Shown in pieces: positions 12,545 through 45,926 of a stretch of 64,000 nt of DNA. The notes under the pieces were generated by a model, which ran no database searches, was not told the origin of the DNA, and saw nothing but the letters and a program-made list of their open reading frames with translations. The stretch's first letter is position 1. Every line of letters starts with the position of its first letter. The DNA comes from Sphagnum magellanicum (taxonomy: Eukaryota > Streptophyta > Sphagnopsida > Sphagnales > Sphagnaceae). Made by a program: the position numbers and the translations under genes. The stretch lies in NCBI GenBank assembly GCA_021904315.1, contig CM038914.1:23485065-23549064 (forward strand), given 5' to 3'.

Positions 12545-15500
12545 TTACAGCCCCGTTCCTCCACATGGAAGTCTTGCAAGTTGGCCAGTTTGTTCACCCT
12601 TCTTCAAATGTTCTTCACAAATCCATCCCACTTCTGCTATCTGCTCATCCTTGTATATCACCCTCTGCAACCCAAATTCTTTGAGAATAGATTTATCTTT
12701 CAAGAAGTCCACCAGCCATTGTTCTGCAGACTCTTTCTGTGCAGTTCTCACAGCTGAAGCTGCATCCATCACAAGTTCCTGAGGTGTAACAGTGGCCCAG
12801 TCTATTGGCAAATGTGATCCCACAGAGTCACTTACAGCTTTAGCATATGCTCTGCTAGGATTAGGCACCAGGTCGCCTATCCCCAAAGTGATGTGTGCTC
12901 CCACTTTAATAGCCAGGAAGACCCACTTCAGCCCTTCCACCACCAATCCATGGATCTCCTCCCATTCCTTCTCTTGAAGAATCACCTCACATCCATGCTT
13001 CCCCTGCACTTTGTGCACATGTGTCTTGTATTCACATAGAAGATGCAGTCGGAGAGCCTTCATTCCAGGCACAAACTTTGTTACCAACCTCTGCTTCATA
13101 CTGGCATCATTTTTAGTGAACAACACAATGCGTGGCACTTGGTGTTGTGAGGACTTCACGAAAAAATCAATGATGTGTTTAGTCATTGGACACAACCTTT
13201 CATCCAGATGCCTAATGTGTATGCTCAAATCCTCAATCTTCTGCAAAACTATGTCCTGGTGCGAAGACATTGGGTCTTGTGGTAAAGGACGTTGCACATT
13301 GTTTCGGTTGTCTCCTGAGCTGGGCACAAGGACTTTCGAACTTTCACCAGAAAACACGGGTTTGGGGAAGGTTGATTCCTGTGCTTCCAGGATTGATGAT
13401 GTCAATCCACCTAAGGGATTCATTGTGTGTTCATAACCCTTGGAATGTTGTAGGTCATGAAGTCGTCTTTCCACATCCTCTTTTTCCTTGCTTCCCAAGA
13501 GGTCCATGGCTGCTTCACAACTTGAATCAAGAATGACATGATCTCCTTCTTTCAATCGACTCCAAGTATGCTGGTAGGATCTCATTCTGGACCCAGAAGC
13601 CTCAATTGCACGCTTCAAATCTTCCACAAGGACTGCTTGATTTTGCCTTTGCATGAAGGACATTTGTTGCCTTACACACTCTGGGCGCACAATCCCCTCC
13701 ACAAGTAAGACACCTTGGCAGCCTCCTGAACTGACACAAAGTTCTTGAACATGTGTCATGACTTGCTCGTGAACAATCTGCAGAGCATCGTCAAAGCTCC
13801 TGGAGTTTGAGCGTACCAACACATCAATATGAGTACCCACATTCCCATGATATTCCAAAACAATCTCCACCCCATTAAACACGATGAGGATGAGGTCCTT
13901 CTCAAGGAAGTAATCAGCAGTCATGTGATTACTAGGTCCTAGAAACTTGTTGTGCAAAGAGACCTGTATACACAACCATGACAACATGTCAACAAACAAT
14001 ACGTTTTGCAAATCTTTTGATTCATTTCTATCCTTGTTCTACCTAAAAATTTCAGAAAATGCAAAGTTCCCAAAACATTATATCAGCATGGTGGATGCAT
14101 GGCTATGGGCATAATTATTAACAAGAACTTTTTTCCCTCAATATTATCAATGAAGTGACTTGGAAAAGATGCAAGGTGGTAGTCAAACCTGTAATCGACA
14201 AAATAAACCAGGAGGTATGAATGTGCACTTCTGATCATCACACTGAAGCCTCCGTCCAAAGTGTACGACTTTTGTAATGTTGGTTTGGAAATCACAGTTG
14301 CTTGTTGGCCAATGCCACAGACATCCAGACTCTCTGGCTAGAGTCGTGGGAATGAACAGACCATCATCAAGGGATCCAGGCTTTCTCTCGAAACACAACT
14401 CCAACCTCAACATGAGTTTCACCAAAGTCTCAGCTTTCACACTCTGCATACTTCCTCCATGACGACCAAGGTCACGAGAGGTCTTCAAAGAGTCATTCAG
14501 AATGGCTTCGAGGTATTCTCTTGTTGTAAAACCATCTGCTCGAGATCCCATGGAGCTGTGATCTTTGAATTTGTCATGACTCAGCCGGATTAGGTGGCCC
14601 ATGACCCCGTGACAAAACCAATGCAAATCCACCACAATGAAATCAAAATCATTGAAGAAGATGATATCTCCAGCGTCATGCAGACATTCTGCAACAGCTT
14701 TGCGCCTCTCCGTCACAAGCAGATATTCTGGACCAAAACCTTCAAGATATGTAGTCAAGCCTGGCACCTGTGCATCTTGGCAAAGGTCTGAGAATGTCTG
14801 CCAACTGATCAATGGACACTCCAGATGTTGCAATCTCCAATCTGCAAGGGCAAGCCTCATCACACTACACACCTCATAGACAGGTGGTAACTTCTCAAGT
14901 ATGGCCTGGGTGTTGTCTTGGATAAGACAAGTTATGGAATTTGAAGAATGAGAGGATGTTGCATTCACAGCCATGGGCTCGGGTGATAGATCTAATGCAT
15001 CACGAAAATTCCTCTGCAATTGTGAGACAATCCCCTTCGCCCAAGCAGCAAGCCCAGCAACTTTGTCAGCATGAGTCAAGACCACATGGACTTTCGGTTT
15101 GAAGGAGACAGACTTCCGGGTATTGGAAGCGATGAATCGAAGCCAATACTCCAACTCCTGAGAGACAACTTCAGGTTGTTTCTTTGCATCCATGTACACA
15201 CTGGTGAATGGGTTGCAGACAAGGAGAAATGAGGATGGGTTTCCTGTGTCGCTAAGATTGGGGAACATGAAGTCATGAAAGGCATGGTACTCTTCTTGAC
15301 CCCCCATATCCCAGATGGACAACCTTATTCCTGCATTGTTTTTCAAGCCACAGATCTCAATTCCACGTGTGCGTAGTGCAAGCTGAAGGCGTCCATGCCA
15401 TAATTTTTGAATGCTGTCATGAGATTTTATCATAAGATCTTTGCAAGGACTGAGAAAGGTTTTGCGAAACTTGCTGCCAGGTTCACTACAGCGGATGAGG

Positions 15501-18494
15501 ATCTTTCGCAATGTTGTCTTACCTGCAAGGATCCATTACCAACAAAATGCCAATTAGCTACATAGCATACACCATAAACTCCTCTGTGGCAAGGGAATTT
15601 CAAGCAGGAGAAAAACATGAAAACTACAAGGCTGTCCACATTGACTTCTCCTTATTGAGCTGTTATGTCTGCTTGCCATCAAAGTTCAAACTGTCATGTT
15701 ATTCTAGAGCCAGACTGCCATTCCCTTGCTACCATTCTCAAATCTATTACATGCTTTTGAATGTTAAAACTGTCACAGGTTATCTGCAAATCTGGAGGAT
15801 CTCAACAATTGGATTAAATCTAGAAATGCAGCCCAAGATGCAATTGCTGAAGAAGTTATGGAAGATTGTGCAGGTTAGAAAAGACTGCTTTGGGACAGGA
15901 AGAAAGGTTGGCCAACAGCCCTCCAAATTCTATGTGAGACAGAGCATGTGAAGAATCACACCAATTCCATGGCACATACCAGCATATGGACCACCACACA
16001 AGAACACTCTTGCAGCCTGTGCCTTGGCCAGTGGAAGCCCCCTCAAATATGACTGCATGTACTTCTCATTCTTTCGTAGTTGTTCTTTCACACCATACCA
16101 GATTGAAGAGTCTCCAAAATTGATATCTCTCAAAGTGAAATTCACTAAGAGGATATCCATAAGGATAGGAATAACCCTCTGAGTAAGTATCCCTTGACAA
16201 TCAGACAGGTCAAGGATTTCAAGGGATTTGTTCTCCTTCAAAGATTGTAATAATGCACACAGCTTCTCTTCCCTCATCTCTTCCCTCCGTTCATAGAAGT
16301 GTGGAGCTTTCACTGTGAGCTCTTTTAGTGTGGAATTTCTCTGTAATAACTTAGGTAAGATTTCTCCAAATATTGCATGAGACCAACTTCCTTTCACTCT
16401 GACACGTGGAAATACAAGAGTGAGCTTGCTAAGGTTGGCTTTTGCTCGCTGACCATCTTCCTCCACAATCAATCGTCTGACCAATGCTTGGAGCAATGCA
16501 CAACTGGGATCAATGTCCGCACAATGGTCCAAGGTTTCAACTGTGAGCTCTTTCAGGATCGAGCTTTGTAACACCTCATGGAAAAGAAGATCACATACTG
16601 CACCAGAGATTCTACCCCCCGAAATTGTCACATTGAGCTTAGCAATGTCCACATTTGCTTGCTGGCCATCTGAATCAGTAGTCAGTGGTCGGACCAATGT
16701 GACCTGATCTTGGAATCCCTCATCTGCAAGATTGAGTTGGGTAAAGGTGACATTGGCTTGTGGGCTGTCTGTATCCACAATCAGTGATCTGACCAATGCT
16801 CGAATCAATGTGCAACTGGGACTTCCTTCCACCATGTTGCCATAATGATTTGAGTTCTCAACAGTAAACTCTTTTAGGGTTGAGCTTTGTAGCACCTCAT
16901 GGAAAATAAGATCACATATTACAGCAGACATTCCACTGTTCGAAACCGTAACAATGAGCTTAGTAAGGTCCAAGTTTGCTTCCTGGGCATCATTATCCTC
17001 CCGTGGTGGTCTGACCAATACAACCTGATTTTGGAATGTCTCATCTGCAAGATTGAGTTTGGCAAGGGTAACATTTGCCTTCTGACCTTCTGGATCCCCA
17101 ATCAGTGTTCTGACCAATGCTTGTACCAGTGCACATCTGGGACTCCCATCTAGAACATCACAACAAGATTCTGAGATTTGAACTGTGAGCTCTTTTAGGG
17201 TTGAATTTCTTCGTAGGGTCTCAGGTAAAGTGTCAGCAAGCATTGCAGGAGACGCTTTGACATTTGCAAGATTGATTTTGGTAAGGGTGACATTAGCTTG
17301 TTGACCATCTTCATCTGCAACTAGTGGTCTGACCAATGCTTGGAGCAGTGCACTGAAGCATCTACCTTCCAACACATCACCATAATCATCCGAGGTCTCA
17401 AGTGTGAGCTCTTTTAGTCTTGAACTTTGTAGGACCTCCTGGTAGATAAGAGCAAATAATTCAACAGATGCTACTACTTCCCCCAAAACTGTAAAATTGA
17501 GTTTGGTAAGATCCACTTTCGCTCGTTGGCCATCTTGACCAGCAATCAGTGGTCGCACCAATACAACCTGACTAGAAACTCGGAATCCCTTAATTGCAAG
17601 TGTGAGTTTGGTGAGGTTGCCATCACCATCCACAATCAGTGGTCTGATCAATGCCCTTATCCATCTACAGCTAGGGTCTCCTTTCAACCAGTGGAGATAA
17701 TAGTCAAAGGCCATTTCAACTGTAAACTCTCTTAGTGTTGAACTTTGTAGTACCGCATGGCAGATATAAGCACATACTCCAATAGATATCCTAGCCCCCA
17801 AAAGTGCAAGATTGAGTTTGGTACAGTCCACATTTGCTTGCTGAACATCAAGATCCTTGGTCAGTGGTCGGACCAATTTAACCCAATCAGAATTGTAGTC
17901 ATTTTGAATCTGAATAGTTTGCAAACCTTTGTTACAATGTAGCATAATGGCAAATTCTTCTATTGCAACCTTCATCACAATGGCAACTTCCATTATCCTG
18001 TTTTCCCCTGTATTCATTGTCAACAATTGACTCTGGGAGGAAATATTGGTGTCAAAAGCTTGAGAAAGAGCTAAAACATCTGGTGCTCTTCCTGACAGTT
18101 GAATCTGTAAGGTCGACATGGTACTGTTGGTGCATAGAGCTTCACAAAGCTTGGTAAAACCCTCACCACAACTGCGAAACAAACCTGGGAATACAGAATC
18201 CAGCTTATTCGAAGGCCAAAGGTACTGCAAATGGGTGGATTCAACATTATGGCTGTCACCTATTCGCCTCATCAGCATCAGGTATTGTTCTGCGCTGATT
18301 CTGAAAAAAACTTCTGGCTGAGGAAATACAAGTTCAAACTTGTGTATGGTTTTATAGGACATGTCAAAGTAGTAACCATCAGAAGGAAGGCGAAATTTGA
18401 CCCTCAACTGACCTATGACAATATGGGGAGAGCTCAGAACATCAGACACAAGCGTATCTAAATTGGTGATCCATCTAGTGTCGGTACGTCCCAT
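12545..18494 (-). CDS. LRR-Roc-COR (ROCO) GTPase, TORNADO1-like, copy A
   Basis: I see three exons: 18494..15980, 15522..14189 and 13963..12545. Each intron has GT-AG ends and the phases fit (1, then 0), giving 1,755 residues with no internal stop. Exon 1 (residues 1-838) is an N-terminal region followed by about four leucine-rich modules (repeated KELTVE, LVRPL and KLNL texts) of ribonuclease-inhibitor style. The Roc GTPase has P-loop GGPYAGKT (about 833-840, split by intron 1), switch-II motif WDMGGQE (about 909-915) and THADK (about 988-992) in the G4 position. A COR-like region follows (about 1040-1250), then a 472-residue C-terminal domain I do not recognise. Angiosperm TORNADO1, a regulator of auxin-linked leaf and vein patterning, has the same LRR-Roc-COR plan at about 1,380 residues. 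Function here is inferred from architecture only; expression is unknown. Confidence 0.82.
13964..14188 (-). other. Intron 2 of ROCO A
   Basis: The donor after CRLQ is GTTTGA at 14188, the acceptor is TATACAG ending at 13964, and the phase is 0. The B copy (42767..42543) has the same junctions. Confidence 0.85.
15523..15979 (-). other. Intron 1 of ROCO A, inside the P-loop codon
   Basis: The donor is GTATGT at 15979 and the acceptor CTTGCAG ends at 15523. The exon ends G and resumes GT, so the glycine before the P-loop lysine is split (phase 1). The unit B intron (44548..44093) has the same junctions and almost the same length (457 against 456 bp). Confidence 0.88.
16300..17890 (-). repeat. 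Intragenic array of leucine-rich modules (ROCO A)
   Basis: Within exon 1, modules of roughly 110-170 codons recur. Each starts near an LVRPL motif, passes a KLN text, then an LQSSTLKELTVE-like leucine-rich segment and a second ALVRPL helix. I count about four in this copy and only one in copy B, whose module looks like a fusion of the first and last modules of A. The DNA repeats are visible as recurrent GTGAGCTCTTTTAG and GGTCTGACCAATG texts. Confidence 0.75.
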
Positions 18495-19816
18495 GTCGGG
18501 GTCTGGCCACGACTATCTACTAAGAGATTTCGGGTGTTTTTGAGGCAAAATCGCCAGACGGCTAGAGAGCTGGCTGGCTCTTTAGCCAAACTCACAGTAG
18601 CCTTAGCATTGTATTGCGTGTATAGGCCCTATTAGAGGTGTCTTCGCATGTGGTTTTTGCTGCCAGTTGAGGCAGCATGTTGCCATAAGGCTATTTGTCA
18701 GAATCCATTTAGAAAAAACACTGATCTACACCACGGCAACTCCCTTGCCATAACTAACGTGGACCGATTCCGCCTAGGCAGACCATGAGAGTACACTAAT
18801 GCAGTAAGGGTCGTTCAAGAACTCCACACCTTGACAATATCACGGCCGCTGCAACTGTACATCACCCCAGAACTCCTATTTCGATGTTGAACATTGCATC
18901 ATGGTACATAGCTTGCAGAAATACGATAGTGCTTGCAGGAGCTCTGCCCCAATTGCAGATCTTACTTTCCACTTCATGTATGGTTACTTGTCATTGTGGA
19001 GGGATCCACTCCTATTCCGAATTAGGAAGTTGTGATCCCAACAACTCTCTCGACGCATCCTGCTGCTATTACTGCCCACACGCCTCTTTCAGTCTGCCAC
19101 CCCCTGTCCGTTCATCTCACTGGCTACTGCGAAAAAACAGTCTTCGTCACTCAGAACCTTGGACCGGAGAGTCTTGAGCCCTCGAGGTGGATACAAGCTC
19201 GACCTTCTTGTAGCTTTTATCCACACGTGATGGATAGAGCTACAAAGCCCTGCAGACACCAATCATCACAAATTCATAACAAAAACAACCATAATCTTAT
19301 ACATGTGTACTGAATTACTGACCATCATAATTTCTAGTCTGCAAAATGCAATTCGTTTTCACCAGTCACCAAAGATCATGCCTTTTTAGAAACTTCTCAT
19401 ACCAACGAAGTCCTGTAAATGGGCAAACAAAATATTCAGTAATATATTTCAGTTTTTGGTGTTAACACCTGAATTAAGATGTCGTTCCAAAACTAATCGA
19501 TAGCTCCAGTTTGTAGGCATCTTCTCCTATCTTCTCCACACCCCTCTTCCCGGTGCAACTTCATGACTGTTCATCTCACTGTTACTGCAAAAAAATGGCT
19601 TTGTCAAACAGATTCGTGGAGCACATCCGATTGAGTGCCTTGAGTCTTTTTTTCTTCTTGAGTCTCTCGAGATGGATACAACCTTGAACTCCCGGACCTT
19701 CGAGAATCCGGAGTGGGGTCTGCAGGTCTTTTGCATGAGCTTTTTCAATCGTGAAAGAAAGCTGGATGTCGGCTTCGTCTTGGACTTTGTGGACTCCGAA
19801 GAGAAAGTACCTTAGG
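18495..19816. other. 5' flank of ROCO A
   Basis: Presumed promoter and upstream region on the minus strand, similar to 45927..46735. The first ~700 bp are collinear with unit B, which suggests shared promoter sequence. Further up, A has an internal partial duplication (about 19090..19200 resembles 19560..19680, both with CTCGAGRTGGATACAA text) that B lacks. No TATA box could be assigned with confidence. Confidence 0.5.
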
Positions 19817-19839
19817 AAACGAGTGGGTGCCCGTGACCT

Positions 19840-20520
19840 TCGGCCACTGTGATCATCTAGCCGGACGGATATTTCATCCATCCCCTTAATCGAGACGGAC
19901 AGTAGCTAAAAGAAAAAAAGCTTCCCCAAAATCCATCTCGTCATCAAGCCGGACGTACATTTCATCCATCCCTTTAATTGGGACGGACAATTTTTATTTT
20001 TATGTGTTTTCTATTATTATTATTATTTTGTGATCATCCAGTCGAACGGACATTTCATCCATCCTCTTAATCGGGACGGACAGTAGCTAAAAGAAAAAAA
20101 GTTTCCCCAAAATCCATCCCGTCATCAAGCCGGACGTACATTTCATCCATCCCATTAATTGGGACGGACAGTAGCTAAAAGAAAAAAAAGGTAGTCTTGG
20201 TCAATACAAAAAAAAAAAAAAAAAAAAATTGATTCTGGGCTGTCCAAGGCCTAAATATTTTTTTTCTGGTCTTCCCCTAAATCCGTTCCATCATCAAGCC
20301 GGACGGACATTTCATCCATCCCCTTAATTGGGACGAACAGTAGCTAAAAGAAAAAAAAGGTAGTCTTGGTCAATCAAAAAATAAATAAATTGACTCTGGG
20401 CTGTCCAAGGCCTAAATATTTTTTTCTGGTCTTCCCCTAAATCTGTCATCAAGCCAGACGGACATTTCATCCGCCCCCTTAATCGGGACGGACAGTAGCT
20501 AAAAGAAAAAAAAGGTAGTC
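19840..20520. repeat. Minisatellite, GGACGGACAGTAGCTAAAAG units
   Basis: About five to six repeats contain CATTTCATCCATCC, then TTAATYGGGACGGACAGTAG, then CTAAAAGAAAAAAA. Later units add a GGTAGTCTTGGTCAAT segment and a CTGGGCTGTCCAAGGCC segment, so period length alternates. Poly-A runs occur between units (near 20208..20228). Confidence 0.85.
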
Positions 20521-20545
20521 TTTAATTTTTTAGAAACTTTTAACT

Positions 20546-20622
20546 GGCCGCCCTGCCCTGCCCCCGCCCTGCCCTGCCCCTGCCCTGTCCTGTCCAGCCC
20601 ATGCCCTGCCCTGCGCTGTTTG
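20546..20622. repeat. CCCTG-rich simple repeat
   Basis: A short array of CCCTG, GCCCTGCCC and GTCCTGTCC variants, strongly C-rich on the plus strand, inside the Helitron-like element. Confidence 0.85.
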
Positions 20623-20753
20623 TCGTGACAGACAGACAGACACCTCGGTTCAGGTCCTCGAAGATTTTGAGGACCTCGCTCATTTCAGGACCTCGTCTTG
20701 TTTTTGTCGTGACAGACAGACGGACACACATGTAGCTTTTATATATAAGATAA

Positions 20754-21291
20754 CTAGTTGGTAAACCCATTTTGCAAGCAAAATGATCAGGGGAAAAGTT
20801 TTATCAGGAGGTAGAAAGAAAAGAAACGAAAGAAAAAAGGAAAATCTCCCGGAAAAAGGAAAACCCTAAACCCGGACACACCCAAGAGGATACCCATTAC
20901 ACTGAGTGATACCCTGACACTGAGGGATACCCATTACACTGGGTGATATCCATTACGGACACACCCAAGAGGATACCCATTACACTTAGTGACACCCTGA
21001 CACTAAGTGATACCCATTACACTGAGTGATACCGATACCCTGAGTGACTTTTCCTCTCACCGAAAGTTCTCACAACCCACCCAAGAGTTTACCCATTGCA
21101 CTGAGGGACCCTGTTTTCCTCACAAACAAACCAGACGCTGAGTGATACCCATCACACTGAGTGATTTTTCCTGACACTGAGTGATACCCATTACCCTGAG
21201 TTTTCCAGCCAATAGGATATCGGACTGAGTTCCAGCCAATAGGATATCGGACGGACGGACGGACACACACCGATTCTTTTATATAAGTAGA
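20754..21291 (-). mobile_element. Short Helitron, 538 bp
   Basis: On the minus strand it starts TCTACTTATATAAAAGAA at 21291 directly after A. It ends in the hairpin CATTTTGCTTGCAAAATG followed by GGTTTACCAACTAG at 20754, directly before T. A TC start, an 8-bp hairpin and CTAG end, and an A/T target without duplication are the Helitron signature. The inside is a minisatellite. It sits 3 bp from the 5' end of the neighbouring Helitron-like element, in the same orientation. Confidence 0.8.
20885..21200. repeat. ~19-bp minisatellite, GATACCCATTACACTGAGT
   Basis: Many degenerate copies of GATACCCATTACACTGAGT and GACACTGAGTGATACC, interrupted by CACACCCAAGAGGATACCC. They fill most of the short Helitron and have no coding character. 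Confidence 0.85.
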
Positions 21292-21296
21292 TACAG

Positions 21297-21750: not shown

Positions 21751-21756
21751 GTAGGC

Positions 21757-21765
21757 GAGGCAGGG
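21757..21765. repeat. 9-bp target duplication, left of MULE
   Basis: GAGGCAGGG here and GAGGTAGGG at 27924..27932 match at 8 of 9 positions, differing by a C/T change. Confidence 0.8.
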
Positions 21766-21845
21766 GCGAGACACTAAATACCTCCTAACGAGCTCTGTCC
21801 AGCGCAGTGTCAGGACTCCTGACCCACCGCCGGACTTGACCCCAG
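21766..21845 (+). repeat. Left TIR of MULE
   Basis: Pairs with 27840..27923 on the opposite strand. Shared stretches include CTAAATACC, GAGCTCT and, after a small gap, GACTTGACC. Confidence 0.8.
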
Positions 21846-27923: not shown

Positions 27924-28080
27924 GAGGTAGGGGGGCTCAGGGAGCGGTTCTTTGTCACCTTGTGCACATAAGCTTAGGGTCAAACAAATTTGCATAGAGA
28001 AGGAGATGGTTCAAATGTTCAACATTGTGATAAAGTACTGAAGATAGTGTTTACTACTAGTTCCAAGTATACACTTGCAA

Positions 28081-32099: not shown

Positions 32100-32580
32100 G
32101 AAAAGTGTTACTAAGGGCTCGTCCAGCCAGTTCCCATTGTTAGGCCTTACCTGGTGGTGCAACAGTTTTAATGTCCCTAGGGTAGCTGTATAAGGCCACA
32201 AGCAGGGTAGTGTGGAGTGGTTAAGGCCCAGGAATGTAGTAGTTCCTGCCATTAAGGGCCTGTCCAACCATGTTCCCCGTTGTTGGGCCTTACCTGGTGG
32301 CATGACAATTTTAATGTCCCTAGGAAAGTTGTATAAGGCCTCATGCAAGGTCATGTGGAGGGCTTAAGGCCCTCGGAGGAGATAGTTCCAGAAATTAAGG
32401 GCCTATACAGCCACATTCCCCAATTGTCAGGCCTTACCTGATGGTGCAAAAGTTTTAACATCCATAATGGTAGCTGGTAGCCTTATACAAGGCTGTGTGT
32501 AGGGTCCCGGTCGGTAGGCAGTTCCTTGAATTAAGGGCCTATTGCAGGCACATTGCCCATTGTTGGGCCTTACATAGTGT
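32100..32580. repeat. ~145-bp tandem repeat opening unit B
   Basis: Three cores of GGCCTTACCTGRTGGYR near 32142, 32289 and 32437 give a period of about 147 bp. The array is related to 1..480 and marks the left edge of unit B. Confidence 0.8.
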
Positions 32581-34319
32581 TAAAGAACTTTGTTTCTTTG
32601 AAAAAAGGACTTGGGAAATAAGGGGAAGAATCTTTCCACCTATTGAATTTTTCTTGAACAAATGGAATGAGAAATTAAGGTGAGGGTGCCTTAAATTTAC
32701 AATTTTTTCTTGAACAAAACAGAAAAGGGAAATAAGATAAAGCAAATTAAAAACTTTTAATTTTCTTGAACAAAAGAAATGGGAAATAAGAGGAAGTGCC
32801 ATATACCCTCCGTCATATATCAAAGGTGTTCTGTCCTTTTGAAAGCTGGGCTCCATGCAGTACATTATGTGGTAATGTTGTAGATTACGACATTGTTATG
32901 TTATTTCTCATATTGAAAAACCACTAACGTACTAAGTTCTAACCCACTCTAGGTATAAGCTGTGATTGGCCATTCAGAACTAGTAAAAAATTGCCCCTTT
33001 GATTGCTTCAGATCAAGGATTTAAGTAAGATTTAGATTCACACTCATGTGAGTAAAAAAATCAAATGAGACATATTCATCTTTTTCTTTGCAAAAATGTT
33101 TGTTTAGGAATTCTCCTTGTGGCCAGGAAAAGTAATAGGTAGACATGTTGATTTAAGGTACAGGGTTTAATGGAGTGGCAAGCTGATGATCTAGTTATTT
33201 GTTCCAATGCCATCAAAAAGGCCTTATGGACAACTTTGCCTATCCCATGAGAAGAAGCTTTCTCCATATAGAGCTTGGCATTTGTGTCATAAGCTAGAAT
33301 GTGGTGTAGGTACTCTTTGAGGAAAGCAACAATGATAATGAATTGTGTATACCTGATCTGAAATTCTACTTTTGCAAAGACACTTAACTAACCCATTTTA
33401 ATCCTACAGCCTTTTGTCAAATTTGCCAGTGTCAAAGAAAAGGTTGGACTATGCCTAATATATAGGCAGAAAATTTGTTGAAGGGAGTTGATGGTTGAGA
33501 CTTGAAACACCACTGCATGATTTAGCATGCTTTAGAATTGATTTTTAAATTCCCCTTCATTGGGGAGGCTCGTATAGACTATAGACACCAGGCATTCCTC
33601 ATGAACTGTAATTGCCAAGCTCAAAAAAGGTGCATTTTCAAAGCCTTATGCATTGATTTTGTTCTAGTCCACCACCAGAAAAAAATTTAAACAAATTTCA
33701 ATGTAAGATATCACAACATGGTAGCACTAATAACCAATTTAATATTTTATTCAACATAACCCAATAGCTTACTAAGATAGAAAATGTACATACATTGGGA
33801 ATTCTATTTTAAATCCACATTCTAGTTTTAAATTGATTTTTGGGAAACTTTTGTCTTATAGTTTTCACATTAAATTGCTTTTGGAGCATACCCTCCTCCC
33901 ATAACTTAAATGTCTGTTTATTGGTCAATTTGCAATGTTGTGTGGGCACAACTTCATAAACCATCCGGTGGCTATCGCTTATGACTTACTATGGAGAATG
34001 ATAAATGGCAAATGCTCCTCAGTGTGATCTTTAATGTCATATATGGCTTATTCAAAGGGCATAGGTCCACAAGAAATTTGAAGTGAGTTCATTTTGTGTC
34101 AATTGTTTCCCATGAAATTGTTATAGCAAGCAAGTGCCCACAAGGGGAAAACTTTTGATAACCTTGGTAACATATTTAAATCACCTATGAGAAACCACCA
34201 CCTGCGAAATGTTCATCTGGCCATAGCCCGTCTTCATGTTGAGTGTTTTGCAAAAATCTGAGCCCATTTTACACTCCTGTGTGGTTTGCATTACCTTTTG
34301 AGATCAAGGCAAGCAATGC
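32581..34319. other. Duplicated non-coding sequence in unit B
   Basis: Collinear with 481..2168. No gene recognised. Confidence 0.6.
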
Positions 34320-34800
34320 TCAAGTTGAGCTATCCACTAATGACTCATGTAGTTGGGCCAACATGCCCACAACACAAGCTGTGACCTCCACTGTTGGTGC
34401 GTCAAGCGAACTGCCATGATCTGCAAGTGGGATATTGTTGATGTAGAGATGGGTGTTGCCTACATCACAAGCAGCAAAACCCCCTTTCTTGCTTTGCAAG
34501 CCCATAACCCAGTCTTTGCCACAAGCTATGGCTTTGTTGTTGTCCCCTATGCCAAATTGTTGGCAGGCATGATCCATAACCATCGCCACCACTGATGTGT
34601 TATCTCGGTCAATGAAGTAGGTGTTGGTAAATTGGAAGGCCCAACTACCTGGACGAACATGTGGCTTTTGATACACCCAATCACCTTTGACATGTAACAC
34701 TTGTCTATTAAGTAGCCAATTGAGTGCATGGTTGATTTGTGTTTCAAAAGCTTGATTGCCAACTGGATGATAGTTTGTGGGGTTGTTGGGGGTGTAAACT
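34320..34800 (-). pseudogene. Squalene-hopene cyclase-like fragment, middle part
   Basis: An open minus-strand frame of about 155 codons matches the middle of bacterial-type squalene-hopene cyclases: a LNWLLNRQ helix, KGDW, PGSWAFQF, the catalytic region DRDNTSVV, WVMGLQSKKGGF (a QW-like motif) and NNIPLADHGS. These enzymes cyclise squalene to hopene-type triterpenes at membranes; bacterial-type versions are known in ferns and mosses. Here the DXDD proton-donor motif reads DRDN, and the QW motif tryptophan is Phe. The frame ends in TGA at 34320, well short of the enzyme's end, and the C-terminal part lies on the other strand nearby. It is a relic, not a working gene. Confidence 0.82.
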
Positions 34801-34979
34801 ATATCTATGGTACTTGATCAGTGTCGGTAGCACTAAGCAATGTGGGCATTAGTTCAATGACTCTTCGGTGACTAAGGCAGTGCATTGGTCGCTCAATATC
34901 CAAAATGTGTACGGTGGCTGGGAGTGGTCTTCTGATAGCTACAAGCTAGATAGACTATAAGGGTTACAAACCTGAATCT

Positions 34980-35249
34980 TCAACCTCAAACCAAACAGCT
35001 TGGGCATTGCTTGCCTTAATGTCAGCAGATGAGGTCAAGCATAAGGCAGTGGAAAATGGGATCACATTTTTGCAAAACATTCACGGTGAAGAAGGTTGTT
35101 GGCTTGGTGAGTGTTTCAGTGGTGGTGATTTTCCACAGGTACTTTACTTCCAACACCATGGCTACCTAACGTTTTTCCCCTTATGGGGCCTCACCCATTA
35201 TCACAATATCCTGCAAAATAGTTCACACGCAATTGTAGTTGAGATTTGA
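34980..35249 (+). pseudogene. Squalene-hopene cyclase-like fragment, C-terminal part, inverted
   Basis: The plus strand reads NQTAWALLALMSADEVKHKA, then a segment with GEEGCWLGECFSGGDFPQVL and a HHGYLTFFPLWGLTHYHN ending. This matches the cyclase C-terminus (QTAWAL, DGSW, GTGFPRVFYLRYHGY, FPLWALARY). It is head-to-head with the middle fragment at 34320..34800, so an inversion has split the gene copy. The DGSW of the QW repeat reads EGCW and FYLRYHGY reads LYFQHHGY, so key residues have drifted. Unit A has lost this piece. Confidence 0.82.
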
Positions 35250-36200
35250 ACTACAAATTTTGTATGGACATGTGTCCTAATGATGGTCACTTGAAATTGC
35301 ACAAAAGCAAGATTTCCCAGTGATCATAGTAAAATGACCTGAAAAAATAGTTGGAGAAAAACATATTTATGCCAAGTTAAGTCTTAGGTTGTGATCAGTT
35401 TTCAAATTCTGTGCCATGTTTATCAAGACAATGTACGAAGGATTGCAATATCCATATATTTGGGTAACAGACTTGTTTAGCTGATTGTCTTACTAAAGGT
35501 TGAGGCATAACATTCAATAACTATGAAATCAAGCTGATTACTTTGCTAATTGATTTTTCCAATGACCGCAAAGTAGCATAATATTCTTTCCAAGCTCATA
35601 ATATTGGAAATCATGACCTTGGCATAGTGAAGTCCAAATCCTGTACCCAGTGCACACCTTCTTATGAAGGGCCATTGACCATGATTTTCTCCACCAGTTA
35701 TATGAAAGCATCAATGTTAAGTAGAAAATCTTGCTGTATGTACCATTTAAATTAAATATCAGCTTCATGATAAGGACATAGATGCACAAGAAACTTGAAG
35801 CAAGTTCAAAGCCCAAACATCATCTTATGTGAACTAAGTCTCCTCATCCTTGTCCTCTTATTGCCACCTCTATATACTGGCTCATTGTGTTCTTGTCCTC
35901 ATTGGTTTATTAAATTTTTGTGATGTCTGATTTAGGGCTTTCATGACAGTGTCAAAATATTGTGGTTTTGTGGTTTCCATGGATAACTTTGTTTTTCTTT
36001 CTATGTTCTTTGCCTTTAGTCGAAGATGATCAATTTCCATGATGACATACGAGATATGAGCAGAGCTGATCTTATTGGTGTCCTGAAAAGATAACATTCG
36101 ATGTCGTCCCGAGTGACATGATCTCAAAGCCAAGAATCACACGGTCTGAATGTTACTGACATTCAAAATCCTGCTCATTTGGGGAGTGTTGCAAAGTTAA
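35250..36200. other. Sequence unique to unit B
   Basis: Part of the 2.16 kb missing from A. A weak LINE RNase H-like text (CLADCLTKG) occurs on the plus strand near 35475..35505, too short to call. The minus ORF 35882..36133 is not recognised. Confidence 0.4.
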
Positions 36201-36214
36201 TGAAGGAATTTACA

Positions 36215-36610
36215 AACGTTGGGCTCCTACCTGGTCTGGTGGATTCGAATCACCAGTTCTGGTTCCAGTTAGTAAACACTGAACCAGAACTGGGTCTAAT
36301 TGTCAGAACTAGCTGATTCTGGAATCAGAACTGGGCTATTTTAAAAACAGGACTTGGAACTGGGTTCCTGGTTCTATTTATGTGTGGAACCAGAACCAAT
36401 ACCAGAATTTGTTTCCAAAAGAATTATAGAACCAAGAGCAAACTGGAGCTTAAGTAGCAGTTAATTGCTCAATCTGATGTGAATTACTTCGAACTGGATC
36501 TGATCTTCACAACTGGAACTGGAAAAAAAATTAATGAAGAACCAGACCCGGATGGCTGGTTCCATTTATGTGTGGAACTGGAAGCATTCTAATATAGTTT
36601 TTAGAACCAG
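36215..36610. repeat. Degenerate GAACCAGAACTGG repeat cluster
   Basis: About a dozen variants of GGAACCAGAACTGG and its complement CCAGTTCTGGTTCC are scattered over ~400 bp, close to palindromic in places. It ends at the deletion junction shared with unit A (TTTTTAGAACYAGAGG). Confidence 0.7.
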
Positions 36611-39600
36611 AGGTTCTTCATAAAAGTAAAGAAACACTAAACACTGGAATTTACTTCCACTTGCATATTATGAGTTATGAGCATAGTATGTCTTTCAGAC
36701 AACTGGAGCACAACTGCATACTGCTTAGTCTCCCACAAGTCATGACATTCTCGCCAAACACAGAATTTCTATTTTCACACAATCTGCTCTGTTGGTTGAT
36801 GAAAGTCAGGCACTTGCTACTACATTTGCATCATGGAAAAGAGGGAGTTGGAGTGACAACAATGGTATTAACTTATGTATAATCTCTAAGACAAAATTTG
36901 TGCACACTCCACAACTCTTCATCAATGTGCACAGCTGCCTGTATTCCTGATGACAACTGCTCATATTCCTGAAATACACCCATAAGCCACTAAAAATTTC
37001 TCATCTTTTGCATGAGATTCTGGTGTTGCTACATCCTACTTCACCATGTTTGTTGGAGGGTTTTTTGGGGTATAGCTGGCAACATTCAGCAAGTGGGATG
37101 CGTTGTGAGTCTTTTCCAGATTTCCAGAACCCTTTACACATATTGGTATGGGTGCAATATCTGGCAGCTCCATGATTATTTCCTCTTTCACGGCTCCTGT
37201 TTGAAGTACATGAGAGACATCCTATTATATTTGCAATCTCACCATTTGCTTCCTTCTTAACATACACCAACCAAGAGAAAGGATATAATTTGGAATTTGG
37301 CAACAAAGGACTCAATCCACACAAGAATTTCCTTGAATGGATTCCATTTCTCTGCATTACTCAGCAGTCGTCTCTTCACTGTGCACATGATGGAAGGACA
37401 TCATTCACTTGGGAATCACCCTAGCTTACTCTAGTTCAATGCTACAGTAGTTTGCATAAAGGTAGAAAAAACTCCAGGATTCTGCAATTAGGGGAAGATT
37501 TGAGAGGGAAACCAATCAGCAACACTGAGAAGATGGAATGAAGAGAACTTAAGCCAACACTTTAAAAGTTGGCTGAAGTTTTTGAGCCATAGGAAATGAG
37601 CAATTATGATAGCTATCTGGATATTGAGATTATCTGGAGTGAGATCATGCAAATAGGTGAATTTTGGGGGGCACCATGAAAGTGCAAGGGACTGAATTGT
37701 GAAAGATGCTCAGAGTAATAATGTTTTGATTAGGTCCAGAGGAGAGACAACCCCTAGTTATTCTTTTATTGCTTCCTGTCAAAAGTATATGACACTCGAG
37801 ATAACCACATGTACTCCCTAAAACCGAGACTGCTTTGGGATGTGATCAAAAGAAAGGATAGAGCATTCTTCATAATATTTCTGCTGAAATGCACAATTAG
37901 CATGTCATAACTTTAGTTTGTAGGAGGGAGGAGGTTTGTAACAGTTTAAAAGTCTTTCCCTCACTGAAAAGGTTATCCCATGACCTAAGTCCCATTCAAA
38001 CAAGGTATACTAAGAACTACATCTGCACCTGCAATCACAATAGATCCAGAAAAAAACTAGACCTGTCTCAGTTAGAGATTTGCATGTTGGAAGGAAACTT
38101 GAGGTTGGTTAAACCTAAAACTGAAATGTTTCCATAGTTATTTAGGACCTGCATAAATGTAACACTAGGTATGCAGAATGGAAAACTTGATTAAAGCCTT
38201 GAAACACCAATAATCTAATAACTCTCACAATTAAAGGTACTTTAGCAAGGAGACAAAACTTTCCCTTCAAGTTAAAGATGAAGTCCAAATGATGATTAAA
38301 GAACAAGGGAGGAAAAATGCAGAAAATACACAAAAGGAACTTGTAGTTTGAATTAACTAATATGAACAGCAGTGATAGTCCCTCATTTACTCAGTGACCA
38401 TCAATAGTGACATGTATGAAAGTGACATTTCCTTCACAATCCAGTTCATCAGCTCTGGATAATTTCCGTGCAATGGGTACAAGCCAATGTAACCACTTGC
38501 CTCAGTGCTGAGTTTCTGTTGCAAGTCCAGAAGCAAGAGAAAGACTCAGCCATGATTATTCACTTTGGCAACCTACACTAAAGAAGGAAATAGATGACTT
38601 CATTGTTTTTGGTTCATGTTATTCAAAATGCCACTCTTTGTTCTTGGTATCCGTGGCTTAAGAACAGACAAGGGACAAACCTTCATCAAACATATGATCA
38701 ATTGTTATTATGTTAATTGGAACTTTCATATTAGCTTTTAGATCTGCCAGATCAATCTTAAGGCATACAGTTGAAAAATCAAACAACAGAAACAAGAACC
38801 AATAAGTTTTATTACAATCCAATCCCAAATTCTCATATCCAACATTTCACACGTATCAAAACTCATTCAAGCAGCAAGCTTCAGACTCAGGCAATCTTCT
38901 CACCAAAAGAAAGTGGCAGAAGGAAATAATGCTCCCTTACCACTTTGGGAGTACTAGATTACCTAACTTGTTGACATGCCAAGAAAATAAAGCGAAATAC
39001 TATTGCAACAATGCCACACATCATATGCGCTTGAATATTTCTGCATGAACAGTCTGACACAAATTCAGCTACTTCTAGCCTAATTAGTGATTCTCAAATC
39101 TAAGAATCTGGTGAATGGCTGTTTGGATCAACACACTCTGGAACTCATTTACGAGCAATTTTTCTTCTTCATGGCCCTCATACTCATGAACATTCACAAG
39201 ACTCTCTGACCTTCCTTCTAACATGCATACTGGCCAATGAAACCATCACAATTATGTGAACCACACTCTGAGTAACTGGAACTTTGTTCACAAAGGGCAA
39301 CATGGAGAGAGATTAAATGCTTGCAGGATGTTTCTGCCTTGCATCCAAACTCAACAAAAAAAGTACATTTTCTTTTGGCCTTCTTCTACAAGATAGTTCC
39401 AAACTCCCCACTCATACAATTACTCACTATGCTGCCAAATAGCACAAACAGAATGCTTTTCAAATCACATGATGCCATTCTTCTGTTCAACGAAAACACA
39501 TAAAATATAGTTGTCTTAGACCCTTGAATGAATGTATCATTACCACATCAATAACCCCTAAAATCTGACACCATGAATTCTTCCAGATGGAACTTCACCA

Positions 39601-41129
39601 AACAGACTCAACAAACAGACAGACACAGAAATTCCTCACCATGCTCACAATCCCCTAAGAGATTTCATCACTTCCACAACCATCCCTAATCCCACTTCTC
39701 CTACTAAATGAATGGGTGAACATTGCATATGAAATTCCAAGTTCCCAGCATAGCAGAAATAATGAAAAACCTAAAAATTCAACTTAACAGTGGCATCCAC
39801 ATCTACGAATCAAGCATTCATCTTAGTGCAGTTCATTATTCACAAATCAACCTCACTACACACTTAAGCATACCAAACCAAAAGCATGAATCATGAACTT
39901 AGCTTTTTCCATTGTGCCTCACCACCTACATTCCTCCCACTTATCTCCTCCCTTGGCCACACAAGCATCCTTCCTACCATCACTCTAATGCATCTCCCAT
40001 CAAGAATGCAATAAAAAAGCCCAGCTTGGCGACACCATTCAACATTTCTGCCTTCAGTAGCACACTGCACATCCACACAAAACCCACACACAGTTATTAT
40101 TCTAAGCACAATGCATTAACTCTTCACAATGCCACCTTCAACAAACTACAAAAGGTGAAAGCATTTTAGCCATTCCAATTGATGATGATAACTTTTCATA
40201 AAGGAGTTGATGTTGATGTCCTTCTCTTTTCACACTGGCCCAGAAAAATCCAGGTCACATTTCCAAATCACACTCTCATGTAGTTAACCAAGGTATGTGT
40301 TTCTGTCACAAGACCCGCATTAACAGGATGACCCATCCATGATGGTGGGTAGCTCAAAGGAACACTAAAGGGAAGGAGATCACCAAAAAAACAAAACAAA
40401 TAGAATGAAAAACAAAAATAAATCCCAAAATTCAAACAAAGAAAAAAGAGGAGAAACAACATTGAGAGTTTTAAGCACAAAGTGGGCTTTGAAAAACCTG
40501 CTTTGATGGGATTGAGATTTCTTGTTAATGAAACCTCTGGTTTGCTCTAATATGAACTCTGAAAAGTAGCATTTTCTCCTCCAAACTTTGATTAAGCTCA
40601 CCATTTGAGCTCCCAAGAACACTAGTGTTTACATTCTAGAAAGAAAAATTATTGCTTTATCTTGCCCCAAAAAAAATTCTTTACATGTTTTCTTTTCACA
40701 AAGACATCCAGCCATAGTGAAAATCTCCATTCACACAGAGATTGTTCTCTTTGACAGTGGAAGTCCAAACAGAATATCAAATTTGGCAGAGTAATTAGTA
40801 CCTCAGGTAGGTACCATTCCGCATTCTAGTCCTTTGCAACAGTGGCTTGAAATTGCAGAATCTCATCACCTAGCAGGTATGATATTCATATTGAATGTCG
40901 TTTTGAGATACATCTTGAACTCCAACCTTCTGTCCAAGGAATTATACATGTAATGTCACCTAAAGGGCAGCTGATCCAATTACCGTTCCAACTCAAAGTC
41001 TCTGATTGCTGAACCACCCTCCTGCTAATTGAATTCAAGCCTAAGTAAACACCTCCCTCTATGAACAACCAATTTAGAGTTCTATTCAAAGATTGCTTGA
41101 CATCCTTAAAGACATGTGCACCTATTAGT
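36611..41129. other. Duplicated non-coding tract downstream of ROCO B
   Basis: Collinear with 2290..3350 and 9085..12544. No gene recognised; small ORFs repeat those of unit A with frame-breaking differences. The Copia element and its right flank are missing at about 37665. Confidence 0.6.
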
Positions 41130-44100
41130 TTACAGCCCCGTTCCTCCACATGGAAGTCTTGCAAGTTGGCCAGTTTGTTCACCCTTCTTCAAATGTTCTT
41201 CACAAATCCATCCCACTTCTGCTCGCTCATCCTTGTATATCACCCTCTGCAAGCCAAATTTTTTGAGAATAGATTTATCTTTCAAGAAGTCCACCAGCCA
41301 TTGTTCTGCAGACTCTTTCTGTGCAGTTCTCACAGCTGAAGCTGCATCCTTCACAAGTTGCTCAGGTGTAACAGTGTCCCAGTCTATTGGCAAATGTGAT
41401 CCCACAGAGTCACTTACAGCTTTTGCATATGCTTTGCTAGGGTTAGGCACCAGGTCGCCTATCCCCATAGTGATGTGTGCTCCCACTTTAATAGCCAGGA
41501 GGACCCACTTCAGCCCTTCCACCACCAATCCATGGATCTCCTCCCATTCCTTCTCTTGAAGAATCACCTCACATCCATGCTTCCCCTCCACTTTGTGCAC
41601 ATGTGTCTTGTATTCACATAGAAGATGCAGTCGGAGAGCCTTCATTCCAGGCACAAACTTTGTTACCAACCTCTGCTTCATACTAGCATTTTTAGTAAAC
41701 AACACAATGCATGGCACTTGACGTTGTGAGGACTTCAAGAAAAAGTCAATGATGCCTTTAGTCATTGGACACAACCTTTCTTCCAGACGCCTAATTTGTA
41801 TCCTCAAATCCTCAAACCTCTGCAAATATATGTCTGGGTGTGAAGATGTTGGGTCTTGTGGTGAGGGATATTGCACATTGCTTCGGTTGTCTCCTGAGCT
41901 GGGCACACGGACTTTAGAACTTTCACCATAAAACATGGGTTTGGGGAAGGTTGAATCCTGTGCTTCCAGGATTGATGGTGTCAATCCACCTATGGGATTC
42001 ATTGTCTGGTCATAACCCTTGGAATGTTGTAGCTGACGAAGTCGTCTTTCCACATCCTCTTTTTCCTTGCTTCCCAAGAGGTCCATGGCTGCTTCACAAC
42101 TTGAATCAAGAATGACACGATCTCCTTCTTTCAATCGACTCCAAGTATGCTGGTAGGATCTCATTCTGGACCCAGAAGCCTCAATTGCACGCTTCAAATC
42201 TTCCACAAGGACTGCTTGATTTTGCCTTTGCATGAAAGACATTTGTTGCCTTACACACTCTGGTCGCACAATCCCCTCCACAAGTAAGACACCTTGGCAG
42301 CCACCTGAACTGACACAAAGTTCTTGAACATGTGTCATGACATGCTCGTGAACAATCTCCAGAGCATCGTTAAAGCTCATGGAGTTTGAGCGGACCAACA
42401 CATCAATATGAGTACCCACATTCCCATGATATTCCAAAACAATCTCCACCCCATTAAACACAATGAGGATGAGGTCCTTCTCAAGGAAGTAATCAGCAGT
42501 CATGTGATTACTAGGTGCTAGAAACTTGTTGTGCAAAGAGACCTGTATGCACAACCATGACGACATGTCAACGAACAATACTTTTCACAAATCTTTTGAT
42601 TCACTTCTATCCTTGTTCCACCTAAAAATTTCAGAAAATGCAAAGTTCCCAAAACATTATATCATCATGGTGGATGCATGGCTGTGGGCATAATTATTAA
42701 CAAGAACTTTTTTCCCTCAATATTATCAATGAAGTGACTTGGGAAAGATGCAAGGTGGTAGTCAAACCTGTAACCGACAAAATAAACCAGGAGGTATGAA
42801 TGTGCACTCCTGATCATCACACTGAAGCCTCCGTCCAAAGTGTACAACTTTTGTAATGTTGCAATGGTTGCTTGTTGGCCAATGCCACTTACATCCAGAC
42901 TCTCTGGCTAGAGTCATGGGAATGAACAGACCATCATCAAGGGATCCAGCTGTTCTCTCAAAACAGAACTCCAACCTCAACATGAGTTTCACCAAAGTCT
43001 CAGCTTTCACACTCTGCATACTTCCTCCATGACGACCAAGGTCACGAGAGGTCTTCAAAGAGTCATTCAGAATGGCTTCGAGGTATTCCCTTGTTATAAA
43101 ACCATCTGCAGGAGATCCCATGGAGCTGTGATCTTTGAATTTTTCATGACTCAGCCGGATTAGGTGGCCCATGACCCTGTGACAAAACCAATGCAAATCC
43201 ACCACAATGAAATCAAAATCATTGAAGAAGATGATATCTCCAGCATCATGCAGACATTCTGCAACAGCTTTGCGCCTCTCCTTCACAAGCAGATATTCTG
43301 GACCAAAACCTTCAAGATATGTAATCAAGTCTGGCACCTGTGCATCCTGGCAAAGGTCTGAGAATGTCTGCCAACTGATCAATGGACACTCAGGATGTTG
43401 CAATCTCCAATTTGCAAGGACAAGCCTCATCACACTACACACCTCATAGACACGTGGTAACTTCTCAAGTATGGCCTGGGTGTTGTCTTGGATAAGACAA
43501 GCTATGGAGTTAGAAGAATGAGAGGATGTTGCATTGACAGCCATGGGCTCGGGTGATAGATCTAATGCACCACAAAAATTCCTCTGCAATTGTGTGACAA
43601 TCCCCTTCGCCCAAGCAGCAAGCCCAGCAACTTTGTCAGCATGAGTCAAGACCACATGGACTTTCGGTTTGAAGGAGACTGACTTCCGGGTATTGGAAGC
43701 AATGAATCGAAGCCAATACTCCAACTCCTGAGAGATGACTTCAGGTTGTTTCTTTGCATCCATGTCCACACTGGTGAATGGGCTGCAGACAATGAGAAAC
43801 GAGGATGGGTTTCCTGTGTCGCTAAGATTGGGGAACATGAAGTCATGAAAGGCATGGTACTCTTCTTGACCCCCCATATCCCAGATGGACAACCTTATTC
43901 CTGCATTGTTTTTCAAGACACAGATCTCAATTCCACGTGTGCGCAGGGCAAGCTGAAGGCGTCCATGCCGTAATTTTTGAATGCTGTCATGAGATTTTAT
44001 CATAAGATCTTTGCATGGACTGAGATAGGTTTTGCGAAACTTGCTGCCAGGTTCACTACAGCGGATGAGAATCTTTCGCAATGTTGTCTTACCTGCAAGA

Positions 44101-45926
44101 ATCCATTACCAACAAAATGCCAATTAGCTACATAGCATGCACCATAAACTCCTCTGTGGCAAGTGATTTCAAGCAGGAGAAAAACATGAAAACTACAAGG
44201 CTGTCCACATTGACTTCTCCTTATTGAGCTGTTATGTCTGCTTGCCATCAAAGTTCAAGCTGTCATGTTATGCTAGAGCCAGACTGCCATTCCCTTGCTA
44301 CCATTCTCAAATCTATTACATGCATTTAAATGTTCAAACTGTCACAGGTTATCTGCAAATCTGGAGGATCTCAACAATTGGATTAAATCTAGAAATGCAG
44401 CCCAAGATGCAATTGCTGAAGAAGTTATGGAAGATTGTGCAGGTTAGGAAAGACTGCTTTTGGACAGGAAGAAAGGTTGGCCAACAGCCCTCCAAATTCT
44501 ATGCGAGACAGAGCATGTGAAGAATCACACCAATTCCATGGCACATACCAGCATATGGACCACCGCACAAGAACACTCTTGCAGCCTGTGCCTTGGCCAC
44601 TGGAAGCGTCCTCAAACATGATTGCATGTACTTCTCATTCTTTCGTAGTTGTTCCTTCACACCATACCAGATTGAAGAGTCTCCAAAATTGATATGTCTC
44701 AAAGTGAAATTCACTAAGAGGATATCCATAAGGGTAGGAATAACCCTCTGAGTAAGTATCCCTTGACATTCAGACAGGTCAAGGATTTCAAGGGATTTGT
44801 TCTCCTTCAAAGATTGTAATAGTGCACACAGCTTCTCTTCCCTCATCTCTTCCCTCAGTTCTAAGTAGTGAGGAGCTTTCACTGTGAGCTCTTTTAGTGT
44901 GGAATTTTTCTGGAATAGCTCAGGTAAGATTTCTCCAAATATTGCACGAGACCAACTTCCATTTGCTCTGACATGTGGAAGTACAAGAGTGAGCTTGCTA
45001 AGGTTGGCTTTTGCTTCCTGACCAGCTTCATCCGCAATCAATGGTCTGACCAATGCTTGGAGCAATGCACAGCTGCGACTACTGTCCAGCATGTCCCCAT
45101 AACGGTCCGAGGTTTCAACTGTAAGCTCTTCCAGGGTTGAGCTTTGGAACACCTCATGGAAAGCAAGATTGCATACTGCAGCAGGCATTGCACTCCCCGA
45201 AATTGTCACATGGAGCTTAGCAAGGTCCACGTGTGATTGCTGCTGAACATCTGCTTCCTGAACATCTAGATCCTTAGTCAGTGGTCGCACCAATTTAACC
45301 CAATCTTGATCAGAATTGTTGTCACTTTGAATCTGAATAGTTTGCAAAGCTTTGTTATGACATAGCAGAAAGGCAATTTCTTTTATTGCAACCTTCATCG
45401 CACTGGCAACTTCCATCATCCGTTTTTCCGCTGGATCTATTGTCAACAATTGACTCGGGGAGGAAACATTGGTGTCGAAAGCTTGAGAAAGAGCTAAAAC
45501 ATCCGGTGCTTTTCCTGACAGTTGAATCTCTAAGGTCGACATGGTCCTGTTGGTGCATAGAGCTCGACAAAGCTGGGTAAAACCCCCACTACAACTGAGA
45601 AAAAAACCTGGGAATACAGAATCCAGCTTATCCGAAGGCCAAAGGTACTGCAAACAGGTGGATCCGACATTCTGCCTGTCACCTATGGACCTCATCAGCA
45701 TCAGGTATTCTTCTTTACTGATGCTGATAGAACCTTTTGGCTGAGGACGTACATGAGCGTTAGACTTCTTCTCTATGGCTTCATAGGACATGTCAAAGTA
45801 CTCAACATTAGAAGAAGGACGAAATTTGACGTTCAGCTGACGTATGAGGGTATGGGGAGACCTAAGAACATAAAACTCAAGCGCATCTCTACCGGCAATG
45901 ATCCGTTTAGTGTCGGTATGGTCCAT
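41130..45926 (-). CDS. LRR-Roc-COR (ROCO) GTPase, TORNADO1-like, copy B
   Basis: The exons are 45926..44549, 44092..42768 and 42542..41130, with the same junctions and phases as copy A and no internal stop. The product has 1,371 residues. Exon 1 (459 codons) has the same N-terminal region but only one leucine-rich module instead of about four. Then come P-loop GGPYAGKT (about 454-461, split by intron 1), WDMGGQE, THADK, a COR-like region and the unrecognised C-terminal domain of 470 residues. It is clearly paralogous to copy A in the Roc, COR and C-terminal parts, with scattered substitutions, mostly in a linker near nt 41750..42060. The length is close to that of angiosperm TORNADO1. Open frames in both copies after ~5% non-coding divergence suggest selection. 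Confidence 0.82.
44093..44548 (-). other. Intron 1 of ROCO B
   Basis: GTATGT donor and TTGCAG acceptor, splitting the P-loop glycine codon as in copy A. Confidence 0.87.

Follow-up and report, generated by a model that had tools for sequence, protein, structure and literature searches.

Two genes, A and B, in a 64,000-nucleotide stretch of the Sphagnum magellanicum genome (assembly GCA_021904315.1, contig CM038914.1, positions 23,485,065 to 23,549,064; hereafter the window) encode leucine-rich repeats (LRRs) followed by a Roc GTPase and a COR domain, the arrangement of ROCO proteins. Both belong to a large and clustered moss LRR-Roc-COR family, and on the sequence evidence we put at about 0.5 the probability that its members are recognition receptors in the general sense, evolving by birth and death. 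The first-pass annotation had read A and B as an isolated local pair. Protein searches of the genome (438,994,042 bases) with exons 2 and 3 of the window genes returned 87 and 113 matches, respectively; 67 of the exon-2 matches span at least 1 kb, and 59 of these 67 contain no stop. Merged, the matches define at least 86 loci, locus counts being lower bounds and some of the 86 being fragments, so that A and B are not a pair on their own. Seventy-three of the 86 carry both core exons, in the expected order in all 73, and 51 combine a long exon 2 with matched stretches that are all free of stops, a criterion that does not take in exon 1. Furthermore, 62 of the 86 loci have a neighbour from the family within 200 kb and form clusters with a maximum of 14 members. 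The largest holds 14 loci in 0.5 Mb of C4; others are found on C18 (9, 2 and 4 loci), C12 (7 and 6), C2 (6 and 2), C9 (4), C3 (3) and C27 (2). The local group on C8 consists of A, B and one broken copy, with another broken copy 0.24 Mb further on. In a tree of 24 exon-3 rows, the members on C4, C2 and C8 form separate supported clades (99/99, 100/100 and 97/100), and a less firm clade (86/98) spans C1, C8, C12 and C15. Two alignments were used, A1 with 23 exon-3 rows (omitting L011, L012, L016-L018, L023, L024 and L031) and A2 with 19 rows; L031 and L019 exon 2 were excluded for a stop in the translation, and L019 was kept in A1.

A and B share a three-exon plan, with the LRRs in the first exon, Roc and COR-A in the second, and a last exon discussed below. 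The assignment to the ROCO family, already proposed by the first-pass annotation, rests on exon 2. In Pfam, this exon matches COR-A (1.2e-6 in A, 6e-6 in B) and Roc (1.3e-4 in A, 2e-4 in B), all under the curated cut-offs (for Roc in A, 22.6 bits against a cut-off of 27), and the two models each match all 19 exon-2 members scanned at E<=0.01. The G1, G3 and G4 motifs are present in both genes; A carries GGPYAGKT, which starts in exon 1, as well as WDMGGQ and THADK in exon 2. The first intron splits the P-loop, exon 1 ending inside it (GGPYAG|KT). Against PDB, the exon-2 profile finds bacterial Roco structures at E 1.4e-5 to 4e-4. Over the whole genome the COR-A model gives 39 matches, eight of them over its cut-off and all 39 inside exon-2 loci, and it gives matches in one of 14 control genomes. 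None of the C4 loci was picked up by this model, which could in the same way overlook an outlying TORNADO1-like gene. At one C9 locus, L068 (C9:1791800-1794950), there is no intron between the LRR and Roc-COR parts, and LRR, Roc (3.4e-5) and COR-A (1.2e-6) are read in one uninterrupted frame. Its repeats match LRR_6 at 1.5e-9, which passes the cut-off, and a ribonuclease-inhibitor-like LRR structure at 5e-13. As such, a joined LRR-Roc-COR product exists naturally. The other three loci of the C9 cluster, where exon-3 matches with stops are all that is found, are apparently remnants.

Exon 1 of A and B has no Pfam LRR match, and nothing convincing was found by Pfam in exons 1 and 3. Among six other LRR exons scanned, those of L043 and L044 pass the LRR cut-offs, those of L040 and L041 match below them, and those of L042 and L039 have none or one weak match. 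Exon 1 of A is homologous to the LRR exons of L040-L044 and L068, and the N-terminal LRRs of A and B, whose own sequence has diverged too far for Pfam, are thus recognised through homology to exons that Pfam itself recognises. Pfam scans of all three exons of both genes contain no NB-ARC match at E<=1, whole A against PDB (phmmer) gave nothing useful, and NCBIfam has no match for the window exons. A genome count of 71 for PF08477 was left unused, the model matching other small GTPases and its best rows lying away from the family loci; the one row checked, a Roc-like match at C7:18008278, proved by its reading frame to be an Arf-like GTPase. In prokaryote contigs, no exon-2 relative was found among 24 pattern stretches, in a search that started from two peptide patterns, was not exhaustive and missed bacterial Roco proteins known to exist.

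The next line of evidence concerns how the parts of the protein change. For the ratio of nonsynonymous to synonymous substitution rates (dN/dS) between A and B, with intervals by bootstrap over codons, we obtained 0.27 (0.10-0.66) for Roc, 0.63 (0.30-1.55) for COR-A, 0.32 (0.08-1.37) for the COR-B region and 0.52 (0.24-1.41) for the C-terminal domain, or 0.44 (0.28-0.70) for the core without its linker; the linker itself gave 1.64 (0.70-6.52) and the N-terminal region 1.82 (0.99-3.81). In the C4 cluster (eight of the 14 loci sampled), values are 0.42 for Roc, 0.49 for COR-A, 0.52 for the COR-B region, 0.58 for the linker and 0.37 for the C-terminal domain, with all intervals below 1. In C2 (five of six loci), the linker gives 0.62, with an interval that includes 1. 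The core exons are thus under purifying selection in the window pair and the C4 cluster, the C2 tail being the exception. For the LRRs, four of the five C2 exons and nine of the ten C4 exons fetched were compared (L061 and L063, which have no single open exon 1, were omitted, and the exons fetched did not include the sixth of C2 or additional ones of C4). Strand positions were assigned by visual inspection of a single reference for each cluster, which is not a formal site-model test. At the exposed positions of the xxLxLxx strand, dN/dS is 2.24 (1.32-4.33) in C2 and 1.41 (0.84-2.39) in C4, against 0.61 and 0.52 at the buried leucines and 1.55 and 1.02 over the whole exon. Random column sets reached the nonsynonymous change of the exposed positions in none of 500 draws in either cluster, and dN is low 12 to 4 columns before the strand, the presumed helix side (0.01-0.08 in C2, 0.05-0.13 in C4). 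In each of the two clusters tested, amino-acid change is thus concentrated on what is presumed to be the concave face of the LRRs, a pattern that is described for ligand-binding LRR surfaces. Together with the window pair (1.82 for the N-terminal region versus 0.27 for Roc), this agrees with the idea, put forward for A and B in the first-pass annotation, of a sensor that diversifies over a conserved core.

The LRR exons also undergo tract exchange. Two C2 LRR exons share an identical tract of 338 bp at 94.5% identity overall, and the third copy on C8 is a mosaic. B is the closer match for its 5' flank (95.8% versus 90.3% to A) and N-terminal region (92.0% versus 84.1%), and A is the closer match for its linker (98.3% versus 91.2% to B) and C-terminal domain (99.1% versus 96.8%), with exon 2 and the second intron no nearer to A (97.1% and 96.0% to A versus 97.4% and 99.1% to B). 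Three lesions disrupt this copy, L039: the frame is lost in exon 1 and again near the end, and the Roc exon contains a stop. The fourth C8 copy is likewise broken. Read by eye, L039 has a terminal-type module, then N-terminal-type sequence, then a further module. In A and B, all LRRs lie within one exon, and a single unbroken frame holds them in 15 of 18 further LRR exons read, those of L039, L061 and L063 having broken frames. The number of leucine-rich modules before the terminal one is five in A versus one in B, which corrects an earlier count of about four against one. We mapped the B array onto that of A at the DNA level in 60-nt windows. Its start matches A from residue 203 at 90% identity, the window at the junction has no good match to A (57%), and past the junction B matches A module 5 at 78-90% and the terminal module at 88-93%; one window in the module-5 stretch, at 72%, fits A module 2 slightly best. 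The suggestion that the B module is a join of the first and last modules of A therefore holds at the DNA level. The difference in module number fits unequal exchange between modules, either as a loss in B or as a gain in A, and such exchange, also proposed earlier, is supported by this join and by the mosaic third copy.

Exon 3 had been described as a C-terminal domain of some 470 residues unlike anything familiar. That length is the whole third exon, of which about 156 residues stand at the expected COR-B place, about 100 form a fast-changing linker, and about 216 form a C-terminal domain; it is for the last of these that the description stands. The exon is conserved across the 23 rows of A1. 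Its first 156 residues are conserved without a Pfam or PDB match, and, given their position, are probably COR-B. In the C-terminal domain, the motifs HxLCE...H, AxQWLVxFL and WxCxxH are invariant or nearly so in 23 members. A conserved, moderately hydrophobic stretch in this domain holds the exon-3 maximum of KD19 in 22 of 23 rows, at values of 1.2-2.1, and falls short of a clear membrane helix. Profile searches of PDB returned nothing below E 0.27 for the C-terminal domain, and for whole exon 3 a best E of 0.11, in the linker. Pfam matches on the 23 rows are weak and scattered; the best, DHC_N2 (0.008, one row) and NUT (0.012, six rows), were judged to be due to chance. Among 87 pattern stretches from prokaryote contigs and 48 from viral contigs, no relative of the domain was confirmed, the scans having started from two short patterns without being exhaustive. 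A structure predicted for exon 3 from the A and B sequences was unusable (mean pLDDT 31.9, 460 of 472 residues below 50). The motif pattern may resemble C-terminal stretches of uncharacterised repeat proteins of Mucoromycota fungi.

So what would such proteins do? In ROCOs generally, Roc-COR has been proposed to be a nucleotide-dependent dimer switch (PMC4104024; here and below, what is said of published work refers to the available excerpts of the papers cited). If A and B are intracellular recognition receptors, presumably cytosolic and perhaps immune, the concave face of the N-terminal horseshoe of ribonuclease-inhibitor-type LRRs would bind either a ligand that varies or a host protein under guard. 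By analogy with ROCO biology, binding would alter a nucleotide-dependent Roc-COR dimer, and the conserved C-terminal domain could relay the signal as the output. Diversity would arise in the LRR exon through unequal exchange and gene conversion, along with tandem duplication. A more specific version, possible in our view yet short of even odds, is that peat mosses, or mosses, have a second intracellular receptor system parallel to the NLRs, with Roc-COR replacing the NB-ARC switch, ribonuclease-inhibitor-type LRRs as the recognition part, and the C-terminal domain with its invariant HxLCE...H and WxCxxH, hitherto undescribed, as the output.

Several results weigh against reading the family as receptors. 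The dN/dS intervals for the A/B N-terminal region and for the exposed positions in C4 include 1. Random column sets reached the observed dN/dS ratio of the exposed positions in 118 of 500 draws in C2 and 59 of 500 in C4, and moving the mask by +1 to +8 columns gave similar ratios, so that the signal is one of the strand and the following loop and not exactly of xxLxLxx. Moreover, dS is raised at the exposed positions (0.146 versus 0.054 elsewhere in C2, 0.363 versus 0.178 in C4); the variation in this fast zone may therefore be partly old and spread by exchange. Selection on the C2 C-terminal domain (1.19, 0.71-2.3) and COR-B region (0.71, 0.42-1.27) is not clearly purifying, and the tail has no recognised relative in Pfam, PDB or pattern scans. 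Finally, developmental ROCOs such as TORNADO1 show that architecture alone does not imply immunity.

Some of these points would suit a mostly non-adaptive expansion, in which a duplication-prone family holds many relaxed or dying copies with drifting LRR exons, and A and B are recent survivors. It would readily account for the 35 of 86 loci that are not clean in both core exons (a criterion that also counts short fragments), for the broken state of two of the four copies that C8 carries near the window, and for dN/dS near 1 in whole C4 LRR exons (1.02) and the C2 tail. We think it unlikely, since core dN/dS is below 1 for C4 and for the window pair taken whole, with bootstrap intervals that leave out 1, while 51 of 86 loci are stop-free in both core exons and the LRR change is concentrated on one face. 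Alternatively, the genes may be a developmental or trafficking ROCO family like TORNADO1, expanded for dosage or tissue specialisation, with LRR change reflecting diversification of partners. Purifying selection on the Roc-COR core suits any function, this one included, and TORNADO1 has the same order of ribonuclease-inhibitor-like LRRs, then ROC-COR (PMC4104024). The moss loci are clustered, with broken copies, conversion tracts and change on one LRR face. Such features are unusual for developmental regulators, which makes this alternative doubtful as well. Self/non-self or hybrid-incompatibility recognition (allorecognition, mating or symbiont choice) in place of pathogen defence would be expected to leave the same molecular signatures, and with no result specific to it we regard it as improbable.

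Re-reading of the exons confirmed that both window genes are intact from ATG to stop with GT...AG introns, as first annotated; in A, exon 1 is an open frame followed by a GT donor at 15979, and exon 3 is open to its stop. The coordinates are collected in the table.

Table. Features of the window (window positions; the extent of the segmental duplication is a minimum)
Feature	Position	Strand	Content or basis
Gene A, whole	18494-12545	minus	1,755 aa, three coding exons
Gene A exon 1	18494-15980	minus	N-terminal region (1-202), five leucine-rich modules (220-680), terminal LRR module, up to the P-loop
Gene A residues 220-609	16668-17837	minus	modules 1-4 and spacers, without counterpart in B; windowed array match, coordinates computed from residue numbers
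Gene A exon 2	15522-14189	minus	Roc GTPase and COR-A
Gene A exon 3	13963-12545	minus	probable COR-B (1284-1439), variable linker (1440-1539), conserved C-terminal domain (1540-1755)
Gene B, whole	45926-41130	minus	1,371 aa, three coding exons
Gene B exon 1	45926-44549	minus	N-terminal region, one leucine-rich module, terminal LRR module
Gene B exon 2	44092-42768	minus	Roc and COR-A
Gene B exon 3	42542-41130	minus	probable COR-B, linker, C-terminal domain
Left copy of segmental duplication	408-19816		carries gene A; self-BLAST
Right copy of segmental duplication	32520-46739		carries gene B; self-BLAST

The segmental duplication that contains the genes pairs at least 0.4-19.8 kb with 32.5-46.7 kb, at 92-95% identity over most of its length (self-BLAST). 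From A module 5 to the 3' end of the gene and 3.4 kb beyond, the copies are 94.6% identical over 7.6 kb, and the introns are 97.6% and 95.1% identical. Because identity is lower in the first part of exon 1 (83.7%) and in the 5' flank (88-89%; 88.9%), divergence is greater in the 5' sensor half than in the remainder of the gene. At the other end of the duplication, segments 408-2288 and 32520-34439 are paired, and the right copy contains a C-terminal stretch of a squalene-hopene cyclase (PF13243, 1.1e-37) at 34320-34817; as this stretch lies inside the duplication, the ROCO gene was copied together with part of a triterpene-cyclase-like gene. The left copy alone holds a Copia-like retroelement at 3363-8820, with direct terminal repeats at 3363-3603 and 8578-8820 (93.8% identical) and frames at 4401-8042, two of which are separated by a stop. 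To the right of the duplication is a protein kinase frame (55374-56998, Pkinase 3.1e-34), and a repeat finder located tandem-repeat arrays with a spacing of about 90-170 bp at 62191-62608 and 19834-20544. In a genome scan that scored the best 125 of 380 NB-ARC candidates, one match, at C8:23562257-23562961, stands in the interval from gene B to the fourth ROCO copy. On C2, two ROCO remnants (8.10 and 7.93 Mb) have NB-ARC matches at a distance of about 13-15 kb. Two receptor-like families therefore share some neighbourhoods.

Plants have been credited with one or two ROCO genes (PMC11378527), and among the groups searched in PMC4104024 plant ROCOs were confined to flowering plants. A moss with at least 73 two-exon ROCO loci is at odds with this general picture. 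No paper on moss ROCOs was among the literature matches listed, in a coverage that excludes most subscription journals; the available part of PMC10463551 makes no mention of ROCO, and that of PMC8195603 has it in the reference list only. What is new here is a ROCO family that is large in a moss and has a C-terminal module of its own, a conserved domain without any recognised relative.

Compared with known systems, the family resembles bacterial Roco proteins (PDB 4wnr, 3dpu, 6hlu and 8r4b) in the sequence of Roc and COR-A and differs from them in its C-terminal domain, for which the pattern-started scans gave no prokaryote or viral relative. TORNADO1 of Arabidopsis and other flowering plants, likened here by architecture, also places N-terminal ribonuclease-inhibitor-type LRRs before ROC-COR (PMC4104024); unlike the moss family, it comes as one or two ROCO genes per plant (PMC11378527) and has developmental mutant phenotypes. 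Like the plant NLR (NB-ARC-LRR) genes, for which these traits are partly set out in PMC11378527, the moss genes occur in clusters, undergo birth and death and have a fast LRR surface. Unlike NLRs, they have a Roc GTPase and COR switch instead of NB-ARC, and the LRR precedes the switch. Another close parallel is with the LRR-ROCO candidate immune receptors of brown algae, which number 9-47 genes per species (Teng et al. 2024, PMC11378527): these too are large families with diversifying LRRs over a kept core and have been proposed as recognition receptors. In brown algae each LRR is its own exon, whereas all LRRs of A and of B share one, and most genes of Nemacystus decipiens lie on different scaffolds (PMC11378527), whereas 62 of the 86 moss loci are clustered. 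The shared C-terminal exon, with its probable COR-B and a domain without known relative, sets the moss side apart. Since the signatures described here are those by which brown-algal ROCOs and plant NLRs were nominated as recognition receptors, the moss family would add a second example of ROCOs taken up for recognition, this time in a land plant with laboratory relatives in which mutants and infection assays are feasible.

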